This document shows positions 8,647 through 10,239 of a stretch of 38,559 nt of DNA, piece by piece (the stretch's first letter is position 1; each line of letters begins with the position of its first letter). The translations under genes and the position numbers were made by a program. This stretch comes from Desulfobacteraceae bacterium (GTDB taxonomy: Bacteria > Desulfobacterota > Desulfobacteria > Desulfobacterales > Desulfococcaceae): positions 1 to 38,559 of the forward strand of contig JAABSQ010000609.1 in assembly GCA_011390315.1 (NCBI GenBank), in the 5' to 3' direction. A model generated the notes under the pieces. That model worked only from the letters and a program-made list of their open reading frames with translations. It had not been told where the DNA came from and did not search any database.

Positions 8647-9498
8647 TTATGGGCGCGGGTCTAGAATCCGGTTGTCGATCAGCCGGGTCTTCCCGAATTT
8701 GACGGCGAGGGCCATCAGGACCGGTCGGTTCAGGGTGGACACCGGTTCCAGGGTATGGGGATCACAGAGGGTGACGTAATCCACCACCGCGTCCGGCCGG
8801 GCTTCGATGGACTCCAGGGCTTCCCGGCGGATTCGGTCGGGGTCGGTTTCGCCCGCTTGAACCCGCTCCCGGGCCCGGTCGAGGGAACGGCTGAGGCAGA
8901 GCGCCTGACGCCGATGGTCCGGGGTCAGATAGGTGTTGCGAGAACTCATGGCGAGACCGTCGGGTTCTCTCACGATGGGGGCGCCGATGATGTCGATATC
9001 GAAGTTGAGGTCCCGCACCACCCGTTGAATGACCAGAAGCTGCTGGTAATCCTTTTGTCCGAACACCGCCGCATGGGGTTTGACGATGTTGAAAAGCTTG
9101 GTCACCACCGTGGCCACCCCTCGAAAATGGACCGGTCTGGAGAGACCGCAGAGGTGTTGAGGAAGCTTTTCCAGGGTCACATAGGTCTGGTAGCCGGGGC
9201 CGTAGATAGTGTCCGGGTCCGGCGCGAAAATGACATCGGCTCCGGCTTCCCGGCAAAGCGCCCGGTCCCGGTCGAAATCCCGCGGATAGGCTTCGAGGTC
9301 TTCTCCGGGACCGAACTGGGCGGGATTGACGAAGATGCTCACCACCACCTCGTCCCCGTGTTTTTTCGCTTCGGCGACCAGCGACAGGTGGCCCGGGTGA
9401 AGGTATCCCATGGTGGGAACCAGAACCACGGTTTTTCCCGAAATTCGGGCCTGATCCGAATGGGCCTGCATGTCCGGTATGGATCGTATGATTTTGAT
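8647..9498 (-). CDS. panC: Pantothenate synthetase (beta-alanine ligase); the first standard start codon is ATG at 9471, but homology-like sequence extends to an ATC at 9498
   Basis: [26 protein letters not shown] ... [21 protein letters not shown] ... [16 protein letters not shown]. The nine upstream in-frame codons ATC AAA ATC ATA CGA TCC ATA CCG GAC read (M)KIIRSIPD, with AAAGGGG 7 nt upstream. Confidence 0.95.
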
Positions 9499-9651: not shown

Positions 9652-9774
9652 GCCGAACAGGCCTTGATCATCGTTTCGGCCAATGGATGCCGCGGAGTGG
9701 AAGCGACCAACCAATGCGCCCCGAAGGGGCGCGGGCAGGTGAATGGCCGAAACGATGATCAAGGCCGCCGAACA
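9652..9774. mobile_element. MITE-like element: 107 bp (9660-9766) with 23-bp perfect TIRs, flanked by 8-bp direct repeats GCCGAACA
   Basis: Left TIR GGCCTTGATCATCGTTTCGGCCA (9660-9682); right TIR TGGCCGAAACGATGATCAAGGCC (9744-9766) is its exact reverse complement. GCCGAACA occurs at 9652-9659 and 9767-9774. Internal hairpin GCGCCCCgaaGGGGCGC at 9716-9732. Confidence 0.8.
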
Positions 9775-9858: not shown

Positions 9859-10239
9859 ATGGAAATACAAAACGATGAATTGGATCGGGTGACGATCCTG
9901 TTGGCTTCATTTTATCTGCTGAGCTTTCTCATCAGCCCGATCCTGCTGATCTGGTCCCTCAACACCCTGTTTAAGACCGGCATCGCCCTGACCCTCAAGA
10001 ACTGGCTGGCCGGGCTTGTATTGATGGGAATCATCAAGTTCCTGCTGAGGGGTAAGGAACGGGTCCGGGAGATGTACGAGGATTACTACGGGGAAGATGA
10101 GGAAGAGGATGAGGAAGACCCCGAGTGGGATTACGGATACGATTTTCCCGAGACGGACAAGAACCGTCGCAAAGCCAAGTTGATCCTCTACCAGAATCCC
10201 AAGAACAGCCACAAGTCCCCGCCGGAAGAGAAATCCTGA
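9859..10239 (+). CDS. Small membrane protein of unknown function with an acidic C-terminal segment
   Basis: Two hydrophobic stretches (ILLASFYLLSFLISPILLIWSLNTLF; NWLAGLVLMGIIKFLL) followed by YYGEDEEEDEEDPE. Confidence 0.65.
   Translation: MEIQNDELDRVTILLASFYLLSFLISPILLIWSLNTLFKTGIALTLKNWLAGLVLMGIIKFLLRGKERVREMYEDYYGEDEEEDEEDPEWDYGYDFPETDKNRRKAKLILYQNPKNSHKSPPEEKS

Follow-up and report, generated by a model that had tools for sequence, protein, structure and literature searches.

A non-coding element of 107 bp upstream of panC in Desulfobacteraceae bacterium (GCA_011390315.1) is a MITE, as seen from its ends, the 8-bp duplications, its multicopy dispersal and an empty site involving a close relative. 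It would have transposed into the intergenic region at positions 9660-9766 of the window (the whole stretch of 38,559 nucleotides analysed), duplicating the 8-bp target GCCGAACA, in a form that would have lost 37 internal bp of a 144-bp MITE from other Desulfobacterales. A DDE-type transposase, annotated only as DUF6399 (PF19936), would mobilise the family in trans; it is encoded by insertion sequences (IS) of ~1.8-1.9 kb whose ~22-bp ends are the same. Judging from sequence comparison, we consider this explanation as a whole highly likely. In this host the transposase would once have been active, although its gene is no longer seen in the assembly.

Structure and location of the element

The element and its neighbours are laid out as follows.

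8647-9471, - strand: panC (pantoate-beta-alanine ligase), left neighbour; Pfam PF02569 Pantoate_ligase, 2.8e-104
9652-9659, no strand: left copy of the target-site duplication, GCCGAACA; read from the sequence, 8/8 identity to the right copy
9660-9682, + strand: left terminal inverted repeat (TIR), GGCCTTGATCATCGTTTCGGCCA; from the sequence and pattern search
9683-9743, + strand: non-coding interior of 61 bp; from blastn and an alignment to four Desulfobacterales relatives of 144-145 bp
9716-9732, + strand: internal hairpin GCGCCCC-gaa-GGGGCGC with a perfect 7-bp stem; from the sequence, fold and alignment
9744-9766, - strand: right TIR, TGGCCGAAACGATGATCAAGGCC; from the sequence and pattern search
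9767-9774, no strand: right copy of the target-site duplication, GCCGAACA; read from the sequence
9859-10239, + strand: ORF of 126 aa, right neighbour; ORF call, no Pfam match

The arrangement of TIRs, duplication and hairpin described in the initial annotation is exact to the base (23/23 for the TIRs, 8/8 for the duplication), and the element, with its 107 bp and no coding capacity, is indeed too short for a transposase. With up to three mismatches allowed, the TIR pattern occurs twice in the whole window, both times at the element, with none expected. For the element strand, the folding energy is -69.9 kcal/mol (z = -7.1). Searches inside the element gave neither a promoter-like nor a terminator-like match, and an Rfam scan of the window gave no match at gathering score.

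The called start of panC is 188 bp from the element, which lies upstream of it, and the sole promoter-like match for panC (9561-9533) falls between the two. On the other side, the element lies ~90 bp upstream of the 126-aa ORF, for which a Pfam search gave no match; its hydrophobic N-terminus makes a membrane protein plausible. The initial annotation suggested that the element could affect the expression of both genes.

Copies in the host genome

The host assembly (4.33 Mb in 673 contigs, 88% complete) contains 49 TIR matches at up to three mismatches, compared with none for the reversed control, and a variant right-end pattern has 30 matches compared with none in the control. The element is thus no single copy, the case that the initial annotation had named as speaking against mobility. 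At ~58-66 bp, most units do not reach the length of the window copy; their layout is GGCTTTGATCATCGTTTCGGCCA-agcctgaatgata..-CGAAACGGTGATCATGGCC, and they are dispersed over unrelated contexts. Among the 34 end-bounded units collected (two contigs enter with alternative right ends), the 8-bp flanks are alike in at least seven of eight bases in 15, including 8 exact pairs. When flanks are paired at random between units, such similarity arises in 0.7%. Flanks of this kind are the mark of a transposition that duplicates 8 bp of the target.

A longer host subfamily of 135-155 bp (L020, L025, L026 and L237, on contigs C651, C213, C243 and C457) has the common interior CCCCGGGATCTTTTCCCGGG...GGGAAGCTGTTTGAGCGACAGTGAGTTCTTGCCGGGCC.

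Copies in other bacteria

The exact pattern GGCNTTGATCATCGTTTCGGCCA is present in at least 115 stretches of GTDB genomes. The matches listed include Desulfobacterales, Magnetococcales, Chromatiaceae (Thiohalocapsa, Thiodictyon, Lamprocystis and Thiocystis) and Anaerolineales. Among these listed matches, 71 end-bounded units were delimited, mostly of 80-173 bp, and their flanks agree in at least seven of eight positions in 39/71 and in all eight in 32/71; the rate at seven or more for shuffled flank pairs is 0.36%. The ends are constant, and the interiors vary by lineage.

The largest number of copies quoted here, 141 end matches in one genome, belongs to G155, in which no DUF6399 gene was found. 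Its 80-bp MITEs (L275-L277) have a REP-like interior, TTATCGCGGCTGGAAGCCGCTCCCACAA, which we take to resemble the REP of Pseudomonas. Long end-to-end spans in G155 were considered as other autonomous elements and set aside, since the two that were opened consist of ordinary genes between separate 80-bp MITEs.

Two side observations concern the ends and the arrangement of the copies. Many copies in G103 and G171, which are of one family and both contain DUF6399 remnants, have a TIR variant specific to that lineage, GGCCTTGATCTTCGTTTCGGCC (A to T); co-evolution of ends and transposase is possible there. At L162:1-492, two to three MITEs lie within 500 bp with near-identical spacers, as if a MITE had been tandemly duplicated together with its flank.

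The parent element and its empty site

The window copy aligns along its whole length with four units of 144-145 bp (blastn and alignment): one on contig C356 of G028, two in Desulfobacteraceae S23.Bin075 (L093 and L144), and one in Desulfobacteraceae S20.Bin143 (L097). Relative to the 144-bp MITE, 37 internal bases are missing from the window copy, the gap being at 9699/9700. The counterpart of the hairpin at 9716-9732 in these parent MITEs, GCGCCCTgaaGGGGCGC, is conserved in the alignment.

In L093, the 144-bp MITE is inserted within another palindromic repeat, as ...ACTACAAGGATTTG-[144-bp MITE]-AGGATTTGGGATAAGC..., and on the host contig C216 the same repeat is uninterrupted, ACTACAAGGATTTGGGATAAGC, with a single AGGATTTG instead of two. 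The comparison of C216 with L093 is therefore an empty site for the MITE family, located at a copy of a repeat and not at an orthologous locus. The interrupted repeat, CTACAAGGATTTGGGATAAGCAAGGATT...AATCCTTGCTTATCCCMAATCCTTGTAG, is itself dispersed and palindromic; the copies at L232 (on C216 of the host) and L093:5980-6245 (in S23.Bin075) are ~98% identical.

At the window locus itself, no alignable region that could provide an orthologous empty site upstream of panC was found in five other genomes of the family, and the insertion's own evidence of target duplication is the exact GCCGAACA pair only. A non-autonomous mobile element with 8-bp target duplication, as initially proposed, is borne out by the dispersed copies, the duplication statistics and the empty site of the close relative. 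The insertion was also called recent; the insertion of a MITE stands, and it may be recent, judging by how exact the TIRs and the duplication are in the window copy.

The stretch of the parent MITEs that is for the most part deleted in the window copy is a match to Acido-Lenti-1 (Rfam RF01687), an RNA listed in PMC2864571. In all four parent MITEs, which are mutually related and so do not count as independent cases, the match covers the whole 46-nt model but scores 32.8-34.4 bits against a gathering score of 37 (E about 1e-4). The sub-threshold matches are:

L041:898-943, - strand: Acido-Lenti-1, Rfam RF01687
L097:4708-4753, - strand: Acido-Lenti-1, Rfam RF01687
L093:6071-6116, + strand: Acido-Lenti-1, Rfam RF01687
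L144:1264-1309, + strand: Acido-Lenti-1, Rfam RF01687

The Acido-Lenti-1 family may consist in part of mobile-element cargo.

Insertion sequences with the same ends

In contig C333 of G028 (L178), from the same order as the host, a pair of these ends encloses an ORF of 537 aa that matches Pfam DUF6399 (PF19936) at 2.1e-42 and no other family over its cut-off. Since a MITE of the 144-bp type forms its right end, this copy is probably chimeric and was not accepted as cleanly autonomous. Cleaner copies were obtained by searching for DUF6399 in end-carrying genomes:

L180, 1918 bp: Lamprocystis purpurea; same ends, 8/8 duplication GCGCATTG
L200, 1793 bp: same genome as L180; same ends, 8/8 duplication GGAATTGC
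L206, 1916 bp: plasmid pTs417 of Candidatus Thiodictyon syntrophicum; same ends, 8/8 duplication GTCCAACC
L185, 1824 bp: Desulfobacteraceae GH14; same ends, no duplication

On pTs417, a 160-bp MITE with the duplication GTTGCGCC lies a few hundred bases from the IS. Across several genera, the ends on DUF6399 elements are near-identical over ~22 bp. No matching 8-bp duplication is present at L181, L183, L185, L189 and L178, and the order also contains DUF6399 genes for which these ends could not be recognised.

The initial annotation held that the mobilising family cannot be named. Its account of the element is correct, but its caution over the mobiliser was excessive: an IS with the same ends, for which it suggested looking, exists in the form of the DUF6399 elements above, with the same 8-bp duplication, although none is in the host assembly.

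Of 146 genomes sampled from the order, 35 have the ends (at most two mismatches) and nine have DUF6399, and 9/9 of the latter are within the 35 (hypergeometric p = 1.1e-6, a value that ignores the relatedness of the genomes, two of which are of one genus, and counts the IS's own ends). DUF6399 is absent from the remaining 26/35. Nor was a DUF6399 gene or a relative of the L178 protein found in the host assembly; because this is 88% complete and fragmented, the partner has possibly been lost or left unassembled. Neither viral contigs nor phages yielded DUF6399 relatives.

Other ends, GGCTACCYACCTAAGCCGGGACAA, with the TIR GGC..CCCAC.TAAGCCGGGACA, mark a second subgroup of DUF6399 elements:

L251:232-1989 (contig C215 of G120): second-subgroup DUF6399 element, exact 8-bp duplication GTAAACTA
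L179:1449-3222: second-subgroup DUF6399 element

The recurrence of an 8-bp duplication with other ends (L251) lends independent support to DUF6399 as a transposase.

The DUF6399 protein

All eight aligned members match PF19936, and D138, D192 and E464 (L178 numbering) are invariant in them, the E lying within the motif VEGRNG. Most members have an N-terminal helix-turn-helix (HTH_23, 4.7e-5). Weak profile matches to the IS481 transposase (1.2e-3) and the rve integrase core (0.025) span the stretch from the first acidic residue to the second. These sub-threshold matches, together with the D-D-E pattern, suggest DDE chemistry. No curated IS family of NCBIfam was reached over its cut-off, the best match being IS481 at 18.5 bits against a cut-off of 224, and a sequence-profile search of the PDB gave no meaningful relative. 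In Pfam the family is carried as of unknown function, and the RefSeq name is 'DUF6399 domain-containing protein' only. Within the collection of papers searched, there was no paper mentioning DUF6399, and none on MITEs with Desulfobacter and transposase. Taking the ends, the duplications and the residue pattern together, we infer that the protein is very probably a transposase acting on these ends.

Alternative explanations

The MITE may be genuine and yet have been made by a transposase other than DUF6399, with the DUF6399 elements sharing similar ends by chance. Neither the host assembly nor most of the genomes with the ends contain DUF6399, and the 26 of 35 without it leave some room for another helper, although they could also be explained by MITEs outliving their helper. 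Chance similarity is difficult to reconcile with near-identical 22-bp ends and 8-bp duplications on DUF6399 elements of several genera, or with the complete co-occurrence in the order sample. Moreover, even in G155, with its 141 ends and no DUF6399 gene found, the two longer spans that were opened hold ordinary genes and no transposase. Another helper is thus unlikely, with a small but real chance of being correct.

The strong fold (z = -7.1) and the likeness of the parent interior to Acido-Lenti-1, below gathering score, are what might be expected if the element were not mobile but a conserved structure acting in cis or as RNA (a terminator, operator or sRNA). Such a reading is largely refuted by the copies in unrelated contexts, the target duplications and the empty site, and neither the terminator- and promoter-like searches of the element nor the Rfam scan of the window at gathering score gave it a match; it is very improbable. 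We consider it just as improbable that the element is a REP/BIME-type repeat whose mobility depends on a RAYT (TnpA_REP) tyrosine transposase. The units are small, palindromic, dispersed and intergenic, and some have REP-like interiors, but they are bounded by perfect TIRs with 8-bp target duplications, and there is an empty site; to our knowledge, target duplication is not expected for REP elements moved by RAYT.

Significance and comparison with known systems

Mobilisation by DUF6399 elements would account for a repeat that reaches up to ~140 copies per genome in some bacteria and is found in several phyla. The MITE itself is of a known type; the more interesting part is the probable function of DUF6399, which, so far of unknown function, gains a testable role as a transposase with defined ends and a defined length of target duplication. 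It also raises the question of whether the Rfam sRNA family Acido-Lenti-1 is in part mobile-element cargo. More tentatively, and at somewhat less than an even chance, DUF6399 may represent an undescribed IS family (judged against NCBIfam) that comprises two or more subgroups by TIR, GGCCTTGATCATCGTTTCGGCC and GGCTACCYACCTAAGCCGGGACAA, and whose transposase would drive MITEs with near-constant ends in several phyla, their interiors being exchangeable hairpin modules (Acido-Lenti-1-like or REP-like); on this reading, at least some Acido-Lenti-1 'RNAs' may be carried by MITEs and not be independent sRNAs.

The proteins of the IS named here are members of DUF6399 (PF19936); their genes lie within the shared ends, with 8-bp duplications as well, but Pfam and RefSeq annotate them as of unknown function and not as transposases. 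They share an N-terminal helix-turn-helix and weak similarity around the first two acidic residues with DDE transposases of the IS481, IS630 and retroviral-integrase types. They differ from these types in a spacing of ~270 residues from the second D to the E, and from IS481 in falling far under its curated cut-off. The ISNCY subgroups of ISfinder, such as IS1202 and ISDol1, are unclassified DDE IS of similar size; no NCBIfam ISNCY model matched DUF6399, but the DUF6399 elements may correspond to an entry in ISfinder. ISDol1 comes from Desulfosudis oleivorans.

The MITEs themselves resemble other bacterial MITEs, e.g. MITEAba12, in being short, non-coding, TIR-bounded, target-duplicating and dispersed. 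MITEs of that type are derived from and mobilised by an IS (PMC6382973). The present family differs in its ends and in its partner, which would be an IS whose protein is annotated DUF6399, and also in that its ends are near-identical across Proteobacteria, Desulfobacterota and Chloroflexota.
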